The translations under genes were made by a program, and so were the position numbers. Positions 1-8,712 of a stretch of 33,795 nt of DNA are shown here, in pieces (the stretch's first letter is position 1; each line of letters starts with the position of its first letter). The stretch comes from Actinomycetes bacterium. Its GTDB lineage: Bacteria > Actinomycetota > Actinomycetes > JAHEKZ01. The notes under the pieces were generated by a model. The model was not told the origin of the DNA, ran no database searches, and was given only the letters and a program-made list of their open reading frames with translations. The stretch covers positions 1-33,795 of the forward strand of contig JAHEKZ010000010.1 of the NCBI GenBank assembly GCA_024644435.1, read 5' to 3'.

Positions 1-263
1 ACATCCGAGCCATCCGCCAACAGCTCGGCCACGGTTCCGTAGTTGAACTCCGAGGTGAAGTAGCTCTCCTCGAACTCCGCCATCAGTCGCATGTCGCTCT
101 TGACCGCGGCGTCGGTGGCCAGCGAACGCTGGTTCAGGAAGATCGGTACTGCGATGGCCGCCAGAATGCCGATGATGATGATGACGACGAGCAGCTCGAT
201 CAACGTGAAGCCTGCGTCCGCGGGTTCAGCCCGCCCCGGATCTCGATTCTCTTGTCCTTCCAT
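1..263 (-). CDS. Type IV pilin-like protein 2 (3' end cut by window edge)
   Basis: The first 87 codons of a prepilin; the rest lies beyond base 1. The N-terminus has an 18-residue leader ending in Ala-Gly, followed by FTLIELLVV. This is the class III signal cleaved by prepilin peptidase between Gly18 and Phe19, with the conserved Glu at mature position 5. A hydrophobic helix (about residues 19-42) and IFLNQR follow, as in pilin 1 upstream. After the helix the sequence diverges, so this is a second, different subunit, perhaps a minor pilin. ATG at 263 is chosen because a GGAGG lies a few bases upstream. It follows pilin 1 after about 120 bases containing a strong hairpin and no obvious promoter of its own, so it is probably transcribed by readthrough. 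Family assignment is firm; major versus minor role is unknown. Confidence 0.88.
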   Translation of the reverse strand, partial: MEGQENRDPGRAEPADAGFTLIELLVVIIIIGILAAIAVPIFLNQRSLATDAAVKSDMRLMAEFEESYFTSEFNYGTVAELLADGSD

Positions 264-317
264 TCCCCCTCCGCCTCTCTTCGGAGTCAGGCGCCGATGC
301 ACCTAACGGAGAGTGGG

Positions 318-384: not shown

Positions 385-810
385 CTAGCAGCCACCGAGG
401 ACGAGGCCGCCCCCAGCGCTGTCGTAGCCCCAGTCGTTGTCCACCTTGATGTTGGTCGCGTTGACGCAGTACGACTGCCCATCAGCGGCCAGCGTGTAGT
501 CCATGACGGTCTCGACGTCAGAAACCTGAACGTCCGTTCCGTCAACGTCCACCGGGTCACCGGCGGCCGCCTGGGTGACGTCCACCTCAGCCGGGTACTC
601 CTGTGCATCGGTGAAGTAGGTCTCCAGCTGGTTGGCGGTGGTGCGGAGGTCAGACTTGATGCCCGACTCCGTAGCCTTCGCGCGCTGGTTCAGGAAGACC
701 GGAATTGCGATGGCGGCAAGAATGCCGATGATGATGATGACGACCAGGAGCTCGATGAGGGTGAAGCCACCCTCGTGCTCTTCCTGGGCCTTGCGGATGC
801 GAGCGAGCAT
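385..810 (-). CDS. pilA: Type IV prepilin (probable major pilin)
   Basis: Probable main structural subunit of the pilus, 141 residues. A 15-residue basic leader ends in Gly-Gly, then FTLIELLVV begins the mature protein. Prepilin peptidase should cut after Gly15, and Glu20 is the conserved Glu at mature position 5. A hydrophobic alpha-1 helix runs to about residue 40 and ends in FLNQRAKATES. The globular part carries Cys115 and a C-terminal Cys141, which could form the disulfide-bounded D-loop typical of type IVa pilins. The open frame extends upstream to 918, but ATG at 810 gives a normal leader and has an AAAGGG-rich stretch upstream; the extension would overlap the leader RNA. Its roughly 165-base leader contains a putative c-di-GMP riboswitch. 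It lies downstream of pilC and precedes the second pilin. Confidence 0.93.
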   Translation of the reverse strand: MLARIRKAQEEHEGGFTLIELLVVIIIIGILAAIAIPVFLNQRAKATESGIKSDLRTTANQLETYFTDAQEYPAEVDVTQAAAGDPVDVDGTDVQVSDVETVMDYTLAADGQSYCVNATNIKVDNDWGYDSAGGGLVLGGC

Positions 811-899
811 CTGTTTTCCCTTTCCCACTGTGCGATGAGCCGTGCGGCGCTCGCCCTTGGGTGATCCTCGACGGACGTGGTCCGCCGGGAAATCAGCCG

Positions 900-966
900 A
901 GGTAGCTGGGCTGACCACGAGGGTCCCCTTGCTTTGCGACCCTGCCTTGCGGCAGGTGTGCCTTTT
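900..966 (-). promoter_or_regulatory. Putative c-di-GMP-I (GEMM-I) riboswitch aptamer in the pilin leader
   Basis: Read on the minus strand, the pilin-1 leader shows the GEMM-I parts in order. AGGCACA is followed by stem P2 (CCTGCC, GNRA-class loop GCAA, GGCAGG; 956-941), then GTCGCAAAGC (940-931), which matches the family signature GACGCAAAGC. Stem P3 follows: GGGGACC (928-922) pairs with GGTC and CCC (916-908) around a bulged AG, ending CAGCCCAGCTACC. Family knowledge: GEMM-I aptamers bind c-di-GMP and often precede pilin and motility genes. Weak points are an unclear closing stem P1 (one C-A mismatch in the best pairing), CACA where CAAA is usual, and a short P3 without an obvious tetraloop receptor. 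The 3' arm of P3 can also pair with 898-893, giving a competing fold. Confidence 0.66.
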
Positions 967-980
967 CTGGCCGGTTGGCT

Positions 981-1037: not shown

Positions 1038-2261
1038 TTACTCCTGGATCAGGTCGAACACCTTGAAGATCGGCATGTACATGGCGATGATCATGGCGCC
1101 GACGATGCCACCGAGGAAGGCGATCATCAGGGGCTCGATCAGCGAGGTGAGGGCCTCGGTCGTCGCTTCGACTTCTTGGTCGTAGAACTCCGAGATCTTG
1201 TGCAGCATCTCGTCCATCTGTCCGGTGTCCTCACCGACCGACATCATCTGCACCACCATCGGTGGAAAGACCGCGTGCTGCGCCAGTGGCGCCGTCAGCG
1301 ACTCGCCGTTCCGCACACTCTCCTGGACGTCGCGCACCGCCCTGGCGACCACGACGTTGCCGGAGGTGTCGGCCACGATGTCGAGGCTCTGCAGGATGGG
1401 CACACCGGCGTGCAGCATCGTGCCGAAGTTTCGGGTGAACCGACTCAGGGCGATCTTCTGCATCAGCGGACCGAAGACCGGCATCTTGAGCTTGAGCGGG
1501 TCGATGACGTTCGCGACCTGTTCCTTGTGCTTCACCTTGCGCCAGATGACCGTGAAGGCGATGAAGCCTATGACCATGAACGGGAAACCGACCTTGACGA
1601 CCTCGCTCAGAATGACCAAGATCCGGGTCGGCAGCGGTAGCGGGGCACCCAAGCCTTCGAACATCTTGGCGAAGACCGGCACGATGAAGAGCAGCATGCC
1701 GGTGACAGCCAGGATCGCCATCACAAACACCACCACGGGGTACGTCATGGCGCTCTTGATCTTGCCCTTGAGCTTGACCTCGGCCTCGTAGTTCTCGGCG
1801 ATCTGCAGCAGAACGCCATCAAGGAACCCGCCGACCTCACCCGCGCGCACCATGTTGACCATGAGCGGCGGGAACACGCTGGGATGCTGTGCCAACGATC
1901 CAGAGAGCGGGTTACCGGTCTCGACGTCATTGCGTACCTGGGCCAGCACCTCCGCGAGCTTCTTGTTCGGTGTCTGCTCGGACAGGATGTTGAGGGCTCG
2001 GAGAAGCGAGAGCCCGGAGTTGATCATGGTCGCGAACTGGCGCGACATGACGGCCAGGTCCTTGAGCTTCACCTTCCCGCCGAATCCGGGGATGCTCAGC
2101 TCTTTCTTCATACCGCCGCCGGCCTGCGAGATGCTCACCGTGGCATAGCCCATGCTGGTGAGCTTCTGCGCCACCGCAGCCTGAGACTCGGCATCGATCG
2201 TGCCCGAGACGATCTTGCCTGTCTTGTCGCGGACCTGGTACTGGAAGGTCGTGTTTCCCAT
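1038..2261 (-). CDS. pilC: Type IV pilus inner-membrane platform protein PilC (GspF family)
   Basis: Membrane platform that couples the cytoplasmic PilB and PilT ATPases to pilin insertion and removal. The 407 residues match the usual length. Two tandem GspF (T2SSF) repeats are visible: about residues 71-195, beginning LAVMSRQFATMINSGLSLL, and about 272-395, beginning LSRFTRNFGTMLHAGVPIL. Each is followed by a membrane segment (about 172-197 and 375-396), with another near 222-240. The paired motifs VRAGEVGG and SVGEDTGQ are typical. The frame is open to 2321, but ATG at 2261 is preferred because GGGAG lies about 9 bases upstream and the extension would overlap the end of pilT. The gap after pilT is 14 bases, so the two are surely co-transcribed. 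Confidence 0.95.
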   Translation of the reverse strand: MGNTTFQYQVRDKTGKIVSGTIDAESQAAVAQKLTSMGYATVSISQAGGGMKKELSIPGFGGKVKLKDLAVMSRQFATMINSGLSLLRALNILSEQTPNKKLAEVLAQVRNDVETGNPLSGSLAQHPSVFPPLMVNMVRAGEVGGFLDGVLLQIAENYEAEVKLKGKIKSAMTYPVVVFVMAILAVTGMLLFIVPVFAKMFEGLGAPLPLPTRILVILSEVVKVGFPFMVIGFIAFTVIWRKVKHKEQVANVIDPLKLKMPVFGPLMQKIALSRFTRNFGTMLHAGVPILQSLDIVADTSGNVVVARAVRDVQESVRNGESLTAPLAQHAVFPPMVVQMMSVGEDTGQMDEMLHKISEFYDQEVEATTEALTSLIEPLMIAFLGGIVGAMIIAMYMPIFKVFDLIQE

Positions 2262-2275
2262 CAGTGACGCTCCCG

Positions 2276-3892
2276 TCAGCCTCGGCCGGTAAGCCGGTTG
2301 AAGTCTTCGATGTGGTGGCACTTCTCGACGCCGGTCTCGTACGTGATCCGACCCTTGTTCACAAGATCAGCCAGATGCTGGTCCATGGTTTGCATGCCGA
2401 ACTTCGACCCGGCCTGCATCGCGCTGTAGATCTGGTGGGTCTTGCCCTCACGGATCAGGTTTCGGATAGCCGGAGTGGCCACGAGGATCTCGCAGGCAAC
2501 GACTCGACCCTTGCCGTCAGTCGTTCGAGCCAGCGTCTGACACACCACACCCTGCAGCGACTGCGCGAGCTGCGCCCGTACCTGCTGCTGCTGATGCGGC
2601 GGAAAGACGTCGATCATGCGGTCGATCGTCTGAGCCGCGTCCTGGGTGTGGAGCGTGGCATACACGAGGTGACCGGTCTCAGCAGCGGTGAGTGCCACCC
2701 CGATCGTCTCGAGGTCACGCATTTCACCGACGAGGATGATGTCGGGGTCCTGACGCAGCACGTGCTTCAACGCGTTCTTGAACGACTTGGTGTCTTCGCC
2801 GACCTCGCGCTGGTTGACCAGGCTCAGCTGGTGTCGGTGCAAGAACTCGATCGGGTCCTCACACGTCATGATGTGCTCTTTACGCTGGCGGTTCGCCAGG
2901 TCGAGCAGTGACGCCAGGGTGGTCGACTTCCCAGAACCGGTGGGGCCGGTGACGAGCACGAAGCCACGCGGCAGCGCCGCGAAGTTCGCCACCTGGTTCG
3001 GGACCCCCAGGTCTTCGAGCTTCTTGATCTCGAAGGGAATGATACGGAAGGCGGCTCCGACGGAGTCCCGTTGCCGGTACATGTTCACGCGGAAGCGCGC
3101 ACGTCCGGGGACCGAGTAGGCGAAGTCGAGCTCCAGCTCTTCTTCGAAGATCTCTCGCTGGCGCTGGGTGATGGCCGCGTACATGACCCGCTGGATCACC
3201 GGCGGCGTCAGGACGGGATACTCGTCCATCTGCGCCAGCTCACCGTTGATCCGGATTGCGGGACGGGCGCCTGCCGTGATGTGCAGGTCGGAGGCTCCCC
3301 GTCCGAGCATCACGAGCAGCAGGTCGACAAGAACGATCTCGTCACCCGCCAGACTCGGTTCGGTGGTGACGCGTGTGTACGCCTCTTCGCTGGCCTCGGT
3401 CTCGGCCAGCTCCACCATCACCTCTGGCTCGGCGTACTCGGTGACGTACTCCGGCTCAGCGGCTGCCGGCTCAGGTGTGGCTGCGTACTCGTCCACCATC
3501 TCAGGCGCTGCAGTGTTCTCGACCTCTTCTGGAGCTGCCTGCTGGTCATGGAAGGCCTGGTAGTCGAAGCTTTGGGTGGGTTCGGGCTCGCTCTCGACAT
3601 CGACGGTCGCGGCCTCCTCGGCAGCGATCGTGAGCGACATCGGCAGGCTGGAGGAGGCGGGAGACACGGACTCCTCGGGCGCGAGCAGCGAGCCGGAGTC
3701 GTAGGTGGTGGGGTCAAACTCCGATGCGGCCGGCTCGTGGACAGGCTGTTCCGTCGGCTGGTCATCCGGCTCGGAGGTGGGCGCGGTCGAGGTGGTGACC
3801 GGCGCGAAGAAGCCCATGTCGGCTCCGGCTTGCCCCTCATCGGGGCGTGAGTCGTCCCCTTGCGGCGCACCGCTGAACTCGGTGGTCTCCAC
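2276..3892 (-). CDS. pilT: Pilus retraction ATPase PilT with long acidic N-terminal extension
   Basis: Hexameric ATPase that drives pilus retraction. From about residue 187 the protein is a standard PilT: LVDLLLVMLGRGASDLHIT, Walker A GPTGSGKST (316-324), Asp box around TCEDPIEF, Walker B DIILVGEMRD (384-393), and the PilT-specific AIRNLIREGK (475-484) needed for retraction in studied homologues. The family is normally about 345-370 residues; this one has 538. The extra 185 N-terminal residues are rich in Glu, Pro, Ala and Thr, with no recognisable fold and probably disordered. The start is GTG at 3892, with AAGGAGG 9 bases upstream. A FliA-like promoter lies about 65 bases upstream, and a small hairpin (3927-3942) lies in the leader. 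The order pilB-pilT-pilC matches T4P operons. Confidence 0.95.
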   Translation of the reverse strand: METTEFSGAPQGDDSRPDEGQAGADMGFFAPVTTSTAPTSEPDDQPTEQPVHEPAASEFDPTTYDSGSLLAPEESVSPASSSLPMSLTIAAEEAATVDVESEPEPTQSFDYQAFHDQQAAPEEVENTAAPEMVDEYAATPEPAAAEPEYVTEYAEPEVMVELAETEASEEAYTRVTTEPSLAGDEIVLVDLLLVMLGRGASDLHITAGARPAIRINGELAQMDEYPVLTPPVIQRVMYAAITQRQREIFEEELELDFAYSVPGRARFRVNMYRQRDSVGAAFRIIPFEIKKLEDLGVPNQVANFAALPRGFVLVTGPTGSGKSTTLASLLDLANRQRKEHIMTCEDPIEFLHRHQLSLVNQREVGEDTKSFKNALKHVLRQDPDIILVGEMRDLETIGVALTAAETGHLVYATLHTQDAAQTIDRMIDVFPPHQQQQVRAQLAQSLQGVVCQTLARTTDGKGRVVACEILVATPAIRNLIREGKTHQIYSAMQAGSKFGMQTMDQHLADLVNKGRITYETGVEKCHHIEDFNRLTGRG

Positions 3893-4029: not shown

Positions 4030-5697
4030 CTAGACGACCACTCGGAGGATTTCGTCCATGGTCGTGACGCCGCTGGCCACCTTCAACATGCCGTCGTCTC
4101 GCAGCGTGCGCATGCCTTCGTCCCGGGCGGTCTCAGAGATCACCGTCGCCGATGCGCGTTCGACGGCGTGCCGCTCTACCGCCTCGCTCACCGCCATGAC
4201 CTCGTGAAGCGCCAGACGACCCCGGTAGCCAGTCTTCGAACAGGCGCTGCAGCCGACCGCCCGGTACAGCGTGGGGAGCTGCTGGCCATCGACCCAGGGG
4301 AATCGTGCCTGCACCAGCGAATCCGGGGTCGGCTCGTACGCCTCTTTGCACTTGCTGCACAACCGTCGAGCAAGCCGCTGGGCAAGCACGCAGTCGAGGG
4401 CCGAGCCCACGAGGAACGGTTCCAAGCCCATCTCGGTCAATCGGGTGACTGCTGACGGCGCGTCGTTGGTGTGCAGCGTCGACAGCACCAGGTGCCCGGT
4501 GAGGGATGCCTCCACCGCGATCTGGGCGGTCTCGTGGTCGCGGATCTCACCGATGAGCACGATGTCGGGGTCGCATCGCAGGATCGAGCGCAGCGCCGCA
4601 GCGAAGGTCAGCCCCGCTTTGGAGTTTGTCTGCACCTGGTTGATGCCCGGCAGCCGGTACTCGACCGGGTCCTCGACCGTGATCACGTTTACCTCGGGGC
4701 GCGCGATCTGGTTCAACGTGGCGTAGAGCGTGGTCGACTTACCCGAACCCGTGGGGCCGGTCACCAGGATCATGCCGTAGGGCTTGGAGAAGCTCTTGGC
4801 GTACGTGTCGCGGTTGAACTCGGAGAAGCCAAGGTCGGACAGCTCCATCTGGGCATTGGAGTTGTCCAGGATTCGCATGACGACCTTCTCGCCCCACACG
4901 GTCGGGAGGGTCGCCACACGGAGGTCGATCTTCTTGCCCTGGTGGTTGACCGACAGCCGTCCATCTTGCGGGATGCGCCGCTCGGCGATGTTGATGTCGG
5001 CCATGATCTTCAGTCGGCTGATCACGCCGGACTGGATGTTCTTGGGTGACTTCATGACGTCGTGCAGCACACCGTCGATCCGGTACCGCACAACAAGTGC
5101 ATGCTCACCTGGCTCAAGGTGGATGTCAGAGGCCCGGTCCTGAATCGCCTGTGTGATCAGGAGGTTGACGAACTTGACGATCGGGGCGTCCTCGACCACC
5201 TCCCTCAAGTTGGAGAGGTCCTCCTCGTCGTCGGCGCTGTCCATGACAGCGGACAGGTCGTCGAGGTCGGAGTCAGCACGGAAGTAGCGGTCGATCGCGC
5301 CCAGCACATCCGCCCTGGTTGCTACGACCGGACGGACCTCCAGACCGGTGATCGACCGGATGTCGTCGATCGCGAAGACGTTCGCCGGGTCGGCCATGGC
5401 CAGCAACAGCTTGCCGTCGTCATCGATGCGCAGAGGAAGAGCGGAGTGCTTGCGACAGATGGCCCCCGACACCCGGGCGATGATGCTGCCGTCTACCGGG
5501 TACTCGCCCAGGTCGACGAACTCCAGCCCGATCTGCTGCGCCAGTGCGGCCACCAGCTGTGACTCGGTGAGTACGCCTTGGTCGACCAGAACGCGACCCA
5601 GGGCCTTGCCCTGCTCCTTGTGCTCGCGGAAGGCAGCAAAGAGCTGGTCCTCAGTGACCAGCCCATCCTGCAACAGGATGTCGCCTAGCTGCTTCAC
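4030..5697 (-). CDS. pilB: Pilus assembly ATPase PilB (GspE family) with MshEN domain
   Basis: Hexameric ATPase that powers pilus extension, 555 residues. The N-terminal 140 residues form an MshEN domain. Two tandem LGxxL-x3-G-x6-L repeats are visible at about 4-27 and 33-55; the second (LGRVLVDQG...LVAALAQQ) fits the c-di-GMP-binding consensus fully, while the first ends in His instead of Gln. The catalytic core has Walker A GPTGSGKST (314-322), the Asp box (ITVEDPVEYRLPGINQVQ), Walker B DIVLIGEIRD (378-387), and a four-Cys zinc motif (Cys447, 450, 483, 486) typical of PilB/GspE. GTG at 5697 is preferred over the in-frame GTG at 5712, because TGGAGGG sits at correct spacing only for the former. 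A FliA-like promoter lies about 65-90 bases upstream. Confidence 0.95.
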   Translation of the reverse strand: MKQLGDILLQDGLVTEDQLFAAFREHKEQGKALGRVLVDQGVLTESQLVAALAQQIGLEFVDLGEYPVDGSIIARVSGAICRKHSALPLRIDDDGKLLLAMADPANVFAIDDIRSITGLEVRPVVATRADVLGAIDRYFRADSDLDDLSAVMDSADDEEDLSNLREVVEDAPIVKFVNLLITQAIQDRASDIHLEPGEHALVVRYRIDGVLHDVMKSPKNIQSGVISRLKIMADINIAERRIPQDGRLSVNHQGKKIDLRVATLPTVWGEKVVMRILDNSNAQMELSDLGFSEFNRDTYAKSFSKPYGMILVTGPTGSGKSTTLYATLNQIARPEVNVITVEDPVEYRLPGINQVQTNSKAGLTFAAALRSILRCDPDIVLIGEIRDHETAQIAVEASLTGHLVLSTLHTNDAPSAVTRLTEMGLEPFLVGSALDCVLAQRLARRLCSKCKEAYEPTPDSLVQARFPWVDGQQLPTLYRAVGCSACSKTGYRGRLALHEVMAVSEAVERHAVERASATVISETARDEGMRTLRDDGMLKVASGVTTMDEILRVVV

Positions 5698-5762
5698 GCC
5701 AACGCCCTCCACCTACGGATGCCCCGAGGGGATCGTTCCCGCCGGCACCGATGTCTTGCACT

Positions 5763-6060: not shown

Positions 6061-6636
6061 TCAGACGCCGGCTTTGACGGTCTCGACCTCGTCCAGCACC
6101 GAGTAGAGCAGTGCCAGCAGGACTGCCTTCACCGATTCCTTGTCAGTCGCGTCGCACGGGACGAGGGGAACGTTGGCGTCGATGCCCAGTGTCTGTCGGA
6201 TCCGTGCTTCCTCGACCTCGTCGACGCCAGTCGTCCGGTTCAGCGCGACGACGAAGGGCACGCGGGCCATACGTCGGAAGGCCTCGAGGATTCCGACCGC
6301 CTCAGCCAACGAGTCGGGACGGTTGGCATCGAGCAGCAGGACGTAGCCCAGCATGCCCTCGCCGAGGATCTCCCACATGAAGTCGAATCGCTCCTGCCCG
6401 GGGGTACCGAACAGGTAGAGGACGAGCTCGCGGTCGATGGTGATCCGGCCAAAGTCCATGGCGACGGTCGTCTCGTTCTTCCGCGACTTGGTGCTGTCGG
6501 AGATGCCACGCTCCGTCGAGAGCACCGTGATCTCGCTGATGGTGCGGATCAAGGTGGTCTTTCCGGCAGCGAACGGGCCGGTGATCACGACCTTGACCGC
6601 CTGACCGCCATGCCGACGACGTTGTTTGGTTGCCAT
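6061..6636 (-). CDS. Small Ras-like GTPase (MglA / CvnD-type)
   Basis: A 191-residue P-loop GTPase of the family found in actinobacterial conservons (CvnD), related to MglA. Visible motifs: G1 GPFAAGKTT (20-28), a switch-I Thr in NETTVAMDFGR (54-64), G3 FGTPGQERF (76-84, with Gly in place of the usual Asp, as I recall for Cvn-type proteins), G4 NRTT (133-136) and G5 PCDAT (160-164). G4 lacks the Asp of NKxD that normally reads guanine. MglA-type GTPases work with Roadblock-fold regulators, and a Roadblock gene lies two genes upstream. The start ATG is one base after the stop of the DUF4388 gene, implying translational coupling. A role in switching or placing the pilus machine is inferred from the neighbours. 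Confidence 0.88.
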   Translation of the reverse strand: MATKQRRRHGGQAVKVVITGPFAAGKTTLIRTISEITVLSTERGISDSTKSRKNETTVAMDFGRITIDRELVLYLFGTPGQERFDFMWEILGEGMLGYVLLLDANRPDSLAEAVGILEAFRRMARVPFVVALNRTTGVDEVEEARIRQTLGIDANVPLVPCDATDKESVKAVLLALLYSVLDEVETVKAGV

Positions 6637-6637
6637 G

Positions 6638-7918
6638 TCAGAGCCCCCGGACGCCGGCGATGAGTCGCAGCATCAGGCTGCGGTTGACGGTTGGATCACG
6701 TTCGATGGCACCCTCGCCAGCAGGTGCGGCCGCAGTGGCCACTCCCGCCATGCCGCCCGCTCCCCCGGTGCCCCCAGATGTCAGGCCTCCCGAGACTGCT
6801 GGCGCTGCCTGTGGTGCGGCCGCCGGTGAGGCGGCGCCGGCTGGTGGGGCGAACCCCGGAGCACGGACCGGTTCGGGGTGATCGACGTCGCGCTTGGGCA
6901 GGAAGGGCTCGGGACGAGGCGGAACCACGTCGTCCGGGGCATGGGCACCCGGCAAGTGCCCCGCCGAAGCTGCCGCAGCAGCAGGCGCGCTGGGCACCCC
7001 GGCCGGTGCACCCATGGGGGCGTCAGGTGCAGCCGGAGGCAGCTGCCCACCGGCGCTGGCTGGGATCGTGGCGTCCGGGACCACCGCGCCCGGCACGGCG
7101 CCGGGCGGTCCGGCGATGCCGCTACTGGCGGGCTCGGGAGCGGCTGCCTCAACCTGCCTCTGCTCCAACGGTGACAGCAGCTGATGACGCCGCCTCACCA
7201 AGGAGACGTGGTCAAGGCTCTCTTCGTCCTTCAGTACGAGCAGGCCGCGCTGGATCAGCGTGGCCAGGGTAGAAACGACGCTGTACTGACCGGCCCCCGA
7301 GACGTCCACCAGATCGCCGACGGACCGAACACCGTCGATCAGCGACAGGAGCGCCCAGGCGTCGGGGTCGACGGTGGTGTCCTCCGGAAGGACCACAGGC
7401 ATCGTGAGAACGACGTCAGGGCTGGGAATCATCCGCGACAACGACTCCCAGGCGTCACAACGTCCCGTGGCCTCACCGACGATCTGCTCAGCAGCGACGG
7501 CGAGTCCGACGTCGTCGGGGTTCTCATCTCCCATCCCGAACGAGAAGTCGCCGTTGGGCCAGCGGAGGAGATCAAAGACTGCATCTATCGCCTGCTCCAT
7601 CGCGAGCCGCTGAACGAGGGCCCCGTCGGCGGCACCTGCCTCGAGCAGGGCGCGCGCCACACCGGCGCCGTCGGTGGCTGCCCGTTCGACTGCCCTCCGC
7701 AGCGCGGAGTCATCGGCGGCACCCAGGCCGACAATGCGGCGAGCCAGCGCCTGTCTTTCCAGGTCTGACACCGCACCGGTGACCGCACCGCCGGAGAAGT
7801 AGACGACGCCAGAGACCTGACCGTTGGTCAGGTGAAGTCCCCCGGACTTCTTCGTCAGGCTCAGGAGCTGGAAGACGTCCGGAAGACTGAAGGCGTCGAG
7901 CGAACCTTCGAGCTTCAC
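6638..7918 (-). CDS. DUF4388 (PATAN) domain protein with Pro/Ala-rich linker
   Basis: A 426-residue protein of unknown biochemical role. Residues 1 to about 110 are a DUF4388/PATAN domain (MKLEGSLDAFSLPDVFQLLS, then GLHLTNGQVSGVVYFSGGAV), a family found in bacterial signalling and motility proteins, including response-regulator fusions. Residues of about 185-240 look like a winged-helix segment (WALLSLIDGVRSVGDLVD ... LIQRGLLVL). Residues of about 255-405 are a low-complexity Pro/Ala/Gly linker. The final 19 residues (DPTVNRSLMLRLIAGVRGL) form a predicted amphipathic helix that could be a docking peptide. The start is GTG at 7918; the ribosome site is weak (AAGGA about 12 bases away). The gene sits between the Roadblock and GTPase genes, so an adaptor in that switch is likely. 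Confidence 0.82.
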   Translation of the reverse strand: MKLEGSLDAFSLPDVFQLLSLTKKSGGLHLTNGQVSGVVYFSGGAVTGAVSDLERQALARRIVGLGAADDSALRRAVERAATDGAGVARALLEAGAADGALVQRLAMEQAIDAVFDLLRWPNGDFSFGMGDENPDDVGLAVAAEQIVGEATGRCDAWESLSRMIPSPDVVLTMPVVLPEDTTVDPDAWALLSLIDGVRSVGDLVDVSGAGQYSVVSTLATLIQRGLLVLKDEESLDHVSLVRRRHQLLSPLEQRQVEAAAPEPASSGIAGPPGAVPGAVVPDATIPASAGGQLPPAAPDAPMGAPAGVPSAPAAAAASAGHLPGAHAPDDVVPPRPEPFLPKRDVDHPEPVRAPGFAPPAGAASPAAAPQAAPAVSGGLTSGGTGGAGGMAGVATAAAPAGEGAIERDPTVNRSLMLRLIAGVRGL

Positions 7919-7974
7919 GTCGGGTCACGATCCTTCGTGGACAGGGGCGGGCACGGACGGGGGCAGGAGGCCGA

Positions 7975-8712
7975 TCAGGACCAGGAGCTGCCGTCGGACG
8001 CGACCACGGCGGGCCGACGATCGTCTGGCTGGACAGGAGCCGCGTGGGCGTATCGGTCGCCCGACGAGTTCTGGTCGTTATCGGGACGCTCGGCGTCCTG
8101 GACAACCGGTACCTGGGGGGTAGCGGGCTGCTGGACCGGCTCAGGCTGGACTTGCTGGGCAGCCGGCTGGGCCGGCTGGACGGGCTGGACGGGCTCAGGC
8201 TGCTGAGACTGGTACTGGACGGGCTCCTGCATCTGCGGCTGCTGCGCGACCGGGGCAGGGGCTGGCTCGGCGGCGACCGGGACCAACGGGGGTAGCGGCT
8301 CCAGCTCGACGCGCAGGGAGGTTCCGACGGCCGCGGCCGCCTGCTTGACCTCGTACAGCATCAGACCGACCTTGGCACCGACCCGACCGACCGCGACGAG
8401 GACTGCCTCGTCGTCGGCGCTGACCAGGAAGACGGTGCCGTTGTCACCCTCGACGTAGACCTGCGACAGGTCGCCGCGTCCCAGTCCTTGAGCGGCGCGT
8501 TCACCGAGCGACAGCAGGGCGGCCGACATCGCTGCCACGCGGTCCTCGTCCATGCCAGGAGGCAGGGCAGACGCCATCGGCAGCCCATCGAAAGACACGA
8601 CGGACGCAGCCTCGACATCGGGAACCTGGCGCAGGAGCGCGCCCAGGATCTGGTCGAGCTGAAGCGAGCGTCCTGCGGCACCGCTAAGTGCGGCGGCGTA
8701 GGGATCTGACAT
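7975..8712 (-). CDS. Roadblock/LC7 domain protein (MglB / CvnB-like)
   Basis: A 245-residue protein. A Roadblock/LC7 domain occupies about residues 15-125: QLDQILGALLRQVPDVEAAS, then VVSFDGLPMASALPPGMDED, with the central helix AAMSAALLSLGERAAQGL and the strand TVFLVSADDEAVLVAVG. Such domains dimerise and regulate Ras-like GTPases; MglB is the GAP for MglA, and CvnB plays a related role in conservons. From about residue 135 the protein is a Gln/Pro/Val-rich tail, probably disordered. The frame extends upstream to 8868 inside aroE, but ATG at 8712 has AGAGGTG at good spacing and gives a normal domain start. A FliA-like promoter precedes it, making it the likely first gene of the pilus transcription unit. 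Confidence 0.9.
   Translation of the reverse strand: MSDPYAAALSGAAGRSLQLDQILGALLRQVPDVEAASVVSFDGLPMASALPPGMDEDRVAAMSAALLSLGERAAQGLGRGDLSQVYVEGDNGTVFLVSADDEAVLVAVGRVGAKVGLMLYEVKQAAAAVGTSLRVELEPLPPLVPVAAEPAPAPVAQQPQMQEPVQYQSQQPEPVQPVQPAQPAAQQVQPEPVQQPATPQVPVVQDAERPDNDQNSSGDRYAHAAPVQPDDRRPAVVASDGSSWS

Follow-up and report, generated by a model that had tools for sequence, protein, structure and literature searches.

The type IV pilus extension ATPase encoded in the window (the whole stretch of 33,795 nucleotides analysed here, from an Actinomycetes bacterium) begins with one MshEN domain whose two motifs depart from the canonical arginines, and the pilin gene of the same cluster is preceded by a c-di-GMP-I riboswitch. 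We consider it fairly probable that this variant domain binds c-di-GMP and favours extension, with the riboswitch separately gating the pilin. A second c-di-GMP input on the same pilus, as put forward in the original prediction, is a sound hypothesis because the MshEN contacts are mostly kept, GGDEF and EAL domains are encoded in the genome and the riboswitch lies in the same cluster; what did not hold was the picture of a complete second motif.

The pilus gene cluster

The reading frame originally predicted for the motor gene, including its strand and GTG start (Table 1), holds. GTG or ATG is found at the start codon in 46 of 49 aligned loci, GGAGG stands upstream of it in the window, and codon conservation across the 49 loci ruled out an alternative GTG start at 5712. 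The product matches TIGR02538 over nearly the full length of the model (2-562 of 564) with 651.3 bits, narrowly missing the equivalog cut-off of 675.65 bits. The gene order is pilB, then pilT, pilC, the riboswitch and the pilin gene; pilT, pilC and a type IV pilin thus stand beside pilB, the surroundings by which the PilB of a type IVa pilus is recognised.

Table 1. Features of the pilus gene cluster and of the PilB N-terminus (window coordinates)
Feature	Position	Strand	Evidence or remark
pilin gene (GGFTLIELL)	385..810	-	PF07963 31.2 bits; start = conserved MLAR ATG
c-di-GMP-I riboswitch aptamer, pilin gene leader	898..972	-	RF01051 53.5 bits, model 1-87 of 87
pilC, platform protein	1038..2261	-	PF00482; NF052607 427.1 bits, below its cut-off of 700
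pilT, retraction ATPase	2276..3892	-	TIGR01420 483.8 bits, cut-off 319.1, match from residue 188
pilB-like type IV pilus extension ATPase, 555 aa	4030..5697	-	GTG start at 5697; PF00437 470.8 bits
MshEN C-terminal subdomain (Pfam PF05157 match)	5272..5529	-	residues 57-142
MshEN N-terminal subdomain, residues 1-55, predicted c-di-GMP site	5533..5697	-	NF053729 and AlphaFold helices
motif II, residues 32-55, ALGRVLVDQGVLTESQLVAALAQQ	5533..5604	-	off consensus at position 1 (A) only
motif I, residues 3-26, QLGDILLQDGLVTEDQLFAAFREH	5620..5691	-	off consensus at positions 1 (Q), 21 (F) and 24 (H)

The PilT frame carries an N-terminal extension of approximately 187 residues (3332-3892, minus strand), acidic and of low complexity by eye, and many of the related PilT ORFs are likewise long. 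A second, partial pilin-like ORF (1-264, minus strand) runs past the window end. The genome holds 10 GGDEF and 6 EAL matches and one other MshEN protein, an ATPase on contig C80 (L064:6243-8036). This ATPase has R at the start and Q at the end of motif I, a motif II without the final Gln and a longer linker; the five adjoining ORFs scanned included no pilus genes.

The variant MshEN domain and its probable ligand

Residues 1-142 of PilB make up an MshEN domain, as had been predicted for its N-terminus. NF053729, the NCBIfam model of the 53-residue c-di-GMP motif (cut-off 38 bits), is matched from end to end (residues 3-55, model 1-53; 60.9-63.7 bits, E = 7.5e-17), and phmmer comparison of the N-terminus with MshE (5HTL) gives E = 1.4e-16, which places the repeats far above chance. 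The two predicted LGxxL-x3-G repeats are indeed present (L4 G5...G12 and L33 G34...G41), within 24-residue motifs joined by a 5-residue linker. They are one MshEN domain with two half-sites, not two c-di-GMP sites, and the separate affinity once suggested for each repeat finds no support, since each repeat of MshEN holds half of one c-di-GMP (PMC5013675). The HMM search proposed along with the prediction was run with PF05157 and does give a match, but at residues 57-142, outside the ligand motif, and would therefore not test that motif.

The MshEN consensus is RLGxx[LVI][LVI]xxG[LVI][LVI]xxxxLxxxLxxQ, with Arg at position 1 (PMC5013675), and an extended consensus admits R/K/L there (PMC11731258). 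None of these is found at position 1 of either motif in PilB, which has Gln3 and Ala32 instead. The statement that the second repeat fits the consensus completely was thus wrong, Ala32 lying outside even R/K/L. The first repeat does end in His as described (His26), yet that account was incomplete, for Gln3 and Phe23 (position 21) also depart; Gln at position 24 is present in motif II only (Gln55). Leu-Gly at positions 2-3 is present in both motifs (L4 G5 and L33 G34), and in the leucine triads (positions 2, 17 and 21) L19 with L33 and L4 with L48 and L52 are kept, motif I position 21 being Phe23. In terms of MshE, equivalents of Leu10, Gly11, Leu54, Leu58 and Gln61 are present (L4, G5, L48, L52 and Q55), and those of Arg9, Leu29, Gln32 and Arg38 are absent, with Q3, F23, H26 and A32 in their place. 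Outside the motifs, D103 aligns to D266 of PilF GSPII-B, which contacts a guanine (PMC11731258), and is found in every one of the 44 aligned members of the clade described below.

Vibrio cholerae MshE (5HTL; PMC5013675), likewise a pilus extension ATPase, has the same plan of two 24-residue motifs, a 5-residue linker and one N-terminal site, but each of its motifs starts with Arg and ends with Gln (positions 1 and 24), where PilB here has Q/A and H/Q. Thermus thermophilus PilF, unlike PilB here, carries three GSPII domains in one protein (PMC11731258). Two of them, GSPII-B (6 nM) and GSPII-C (similar to MshE), bind without Arg at every position 1, tolerating K and L there and, in one motif of GSPII-C, P; motif II of GSPII-B has LGR as in the window PilB, but both GSPII-B motifs retain Gln at position 24 (PMC11731258). 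GSPII-A (PDB 9G1W; PMC12002112) resembles PilB here in that its motif II has a small residue (Ser) at position 1 and its motif I has His at position 24 (PMC12002112; PMC11731258). It is, however, a non-binder whose motif II carries Ala at position 3 and Arg at position 24 and whose helix 1 is extended (PMC12002112), whereas the window PilB has Gly and Gln at these positions and no helix 1 extension. In the literature consulted, we found no published test of an MshEN domain that has Gln at position 1 of motif I.

The AlphaFold model (44 sequences; mean pLDDT 91.7, pTM 0.82) has helices at 4-10, 16-29, 33-39 and 45-55 and shows the four-helix N-subdomain plus C-subdomain that define the MshEN fold. 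Its best structural match is c-di-GMP-bound MshE 5HTL (Z 17.3, rmsd 3.8 over 138 residues), followed by bound GSPII-B crystal structures (Z 16.2-16.6); the Xanthomonas PilB N-domain in complex with PilZ reaches Z 14.2, XpsE Z 13.0 and the non-binding GSPII-A Z 10.5 with rmsd 6.4. Such likeness of a modelled fold to bound MshE falls short of showing binding. In the model helix 1 starts at L4, and as just two residues precede motif I in the protein there would be no extra helix turn to unwind; an extra helix 1 turn hinders c-di-GMP binding in GSPII-A (PMC12002112) and must unwind in GSPII-B (PMC11731258).

Judged from its sequence, the variant site is likely to bind c-di-GMP. Binding would be expected to be weaker than in a domain with both glutamines, but real, because one of two glutamines is lost and His would still be able to donate a hydrogen bond. 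In GSPII-B the motif I change of Gln to Glu (Q190E) lowers the affinity 158-fold to 950 nM with binding remaining, Q218E gives 460 nM, and the two together give no binding (PMC11731258). The NF053729 score of the window PilB is similar to those of proteins with measured binding (GSPII-B 61.1, GSPII-C 59.2 and M. xanthus PilB 59.9 bits), although the non-binder GSPII-A also passes with 52.5 bits. Conservation of the pocket in the clade, set against its loss from the other PilBs of the class, likewise speaks for binding. An N-terminal cut helped repaired GSPII-A to bind (PMC12002112), and the natural start of the window PilB resembles this cut. When S39 was restored in the repaired construct binding was lost (PMC12002112), and Ala32 may therefore matter here. 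The ATP hydrolysis rates of Clostridium perfringens PilB2 are unchanged by c-di-GMP (review PMC11656802), so that motor control by the messenger is not automatic.

Conservation among PilBs of the class

The sample comprised 296 genomes of the class, with PF05157 in 92 and RF01051 in 40 of them. PilBs from the fetched loci were sorted by phmmer score to the window PilB into 50 close PilBs (group A, 20 family codes), 21 more distant PilBs from 19 genomes (group B) and 21 paralogues (group C). With a threshold of E 1e-9, approximately the model cut-off, the ligand motif model matched all 44 group A PilBs tested, none of the 21 in B and 19 of the 21 in C. As the 21 B PilBs have the PF05157 domain and lack the ligand motif, a match to PF05157 says little on the motif, and a PilB can do without the pocket. 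In the tree of the ATPase part, clade A lies on one side of a branch with support 74, and the loss of the motif in B fits one change on that tree.

Within clade A, L19, L33, G34, L52 and Q55, the last being motif II position 24, are invariant in 50/50, L4, R35 and L48 are found in 49/50 and G5 in 45/50. Position 1 of motif I is Gln in 48 and Arg in none of the 50, and the residue before it is Lys or Arg in 44; position 1 of motif II is Ser or Ala in 46 and Arg in one, preceded by Arg or Lys in 49. Motif I position 21 is mostly Tyr, Phe or Val, and position 24 is His in 28 PilBs, Gln in 20, Phe in one and a gap in one. The contact positions vary less than the remaining positions between residues 2 and 55 (mean entropy 0.51 vs 1.08, p = 0.012, relatedness of the rows being ignored).

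GGDEF was found in all 50 clade A genomes and in 16 of the 19 B genomes. We considered whether pocket retention follows GGDEF. The motif is missing from the three B genomes in which GGDEF is absent, but equally from the 16 in which it is present, and retention therefore does not simply follow c-di-GMP. The variant also occurs outside the class, in a MAG titled Nitriliruptorales (L142) with Gln and Ser at the two position 1 sites, while relatives in other phyla often have K or R there. The cultured relatives Cellulomonas phragmiteti (L141) and Demequina sp. (L143) have A-type motifs, and no RF01051 was found within 8 kb in either. Taken at the level of sequence, the MshEN domain of PilB is a lineage-specific actinobacterial variant of a known sensor domain.

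The pilin riboswitch and proposed control in two layers

The riboswitch candidate on the pilin mRNA was borne out by a match to RF01051 of 53.5 bits, against a gathering score of 35. This aptamer is the sole RF01051 site found in its genome, the pilin start lies 87 nt downstream, and its pairs are preserved through compensatory changes. It has G at the place which we take to be G20 of Vc2, presumably marking it as of c-di-GMP rather than cGAMP type. The leaders between aptamer and pilin are 44-88 nt long, with no U run above 3 in 28 of 29 and a run of 5 in the other, and GGCUCA and Shine-Dalgarno elements are conserved in 23 aligned leaders (window leader 808-897, minus strand). The lack of long U runs together with these conserved elements suggests that the riboswitch controls translation.

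Among the 56 RF01051 sites, 29 stand before a pilin, recognised by our own sequence pattern, 26 do not and one could not be judged. A clade A PilB is encoded in 28 of the 29 genomes with a pilin riboswitch; in the remaining one (G060, 78% complete) no MshEN was found. None of the 19 B genomes has RF01051 before a pilin, G069 having it elsewhere. Conversely, the pilin riboswitch is present in 28 of the 38 assessable clade A genomes and absent from 10 that keep the motor motif, the other 12 being left out of the count as their loci are broken by contig ends. As to the proposed check whether orthologues with the riboswitch also keep the MshEN consensus, the pairing recurs in these 28 genomes, but a link between the last Gln of motif I and the riboswitch is not supported. 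Clade PilBs accompanied by a riboswitch have His there in 17 cases and Gln in 10, the others His in 5 and Gln in 4 (Fisher p 0.71), and the independent pairs on starred branches, four in number, are too few; the idea that the riboswitch predicts Gln at this position was therefore rejected.

In the explanation that we favour, c-di-GMP would be held by the two repeats of the single N-terminal domain, with the stacking Arg at position 1 replaced by Gln in motif I and by Ala or Ser in motif II and a basic residue one place earlier (K2 and K/R31). Binding would favour pilus extension as in MshE, the riboswitch would separately gate pilin production, and one messenger would so govern the supply of subunits as well as the activity of the motor. 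Dual control is possible, given the MshEN motor, the riboswitch and the GGDEF and EAL domains in the genome. That actinobacterial type IVa-like pili are controlled from one gene cluster in two layers answering to different c-di-GMP levels is a tentative extension, to which we give somewhat less than an even chance; it would combine the conserved Gln and Ala/Ser in place of arginines, the basic residue one place upstream and an N-terminus that ends at the pocket.

The motor domain could instead be a degenerate, non-binding MshEN, kept for hexamer architecture or for docking to the inner-membrane platform, with c-di-GMP acting via the riboswitch only. We regard this as unlikely, if far from negligible. 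His26 and the small residue at motif II position 1 are as in GSPII-A, Arg at position 1 is nearly absent from the clade (0/50 in motif I, 1/50 in motif II), and position 24 of motif I changes between His and Gln 8 times on the clade A tree and does not follow the riboswitch. Nevertheless, L33, G34, L52 and Q55 are invariant in 50/50, the whole motif scores with binders, the AlphaFold model fits bound forms better than GSPII-A, and where GSPII-A has A41 and R62 (motif II positions 3 and 24) the canonical G34 and Q55 are found here. A pocket for another ligand or a protein partner, such as a different cyclic dinucleotide or, as for Xanthomonas PilB, a PilZ-like protein, would explain why it is conserved but altered (Gln3 in 48/50, Ala/Ser32 in 46/50); MshE binds cGAMP weakly (PMC5013675), and the Xanthomonas PilB/PilZ complex is among the structural matches. 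With the backbone-contact glycines and most of the guanine-holding leucine triads kept, we consider this very improbable.

It may also be asked whether the pairing of riboswitch and MshEN motor is a coincidence of descent, the two having been inherited together in an old gene cluster with just one of them functional in this species. On the tree the clade makes up one side of a single branch (support 74) and is confounded with the riboswitch, which disqualifies their association as strong proof, and their co-occurrence may be one event. The 10 of 38 clade genomes that keep the motor motif without a pilin riboswitch point the same way. The riboswitch label, however, needs 7 changes on the clade A tree and is nevertheless present in 28/38, and compensatory changes preserve the aptamer pairs, so that mere descent appears rather unlikely to us.

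Each layer of the favoured dual control has a known counterpart. The riboswitch of Clostridioides difficile pilA1 (PMC6200980) acts on the major pilin and is of class II, whereas the one here is of class I; in Clostridium perfringens PilB2 it is the N-domain of the extension ATPase that binds c-di-GMP (review PMC11656802). In the literature consulted, each is reported as one layer only, in different organisms, and that review discusses PilB binding in other species apart from the C. difficile riboswitch, as an example of its own, while here both layers lie in one cluster. In the literature searched, no paper was found on the combination of riboswitch and MshEN motor in Actinobacteria, and nothing was recognised on c-di-GMP-I riboswitches of actinobacterial pilins, which does not establish absence in print; by a 2019 review (PMC6916266) the studied actinobacterial type IV pili are of Tad type. 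If the favoured explanation is true, one messenger would control the subunit and the motor of a single pilus, in a layered switch with thresholds directly comparable in one organism, and MshEN would have another way to hold c-di-GMP without two stacking arginines.

Several of the 26 RF01051 sites not before a pilin (loci L016-L137) precede secreted proteins that are CAP-domain-like by eye. Directly upstream of pilB (6061-8712, minus strand) lie genes for an MglA-like small GTPase, a DUF4388 protein and a Roadblock/LC7 protein, possibly a polarity or motor-control module. An MglA homologue was found at most about 3 kb upstream in 24 of the 49 loci compared, several of which are too short in sequence.
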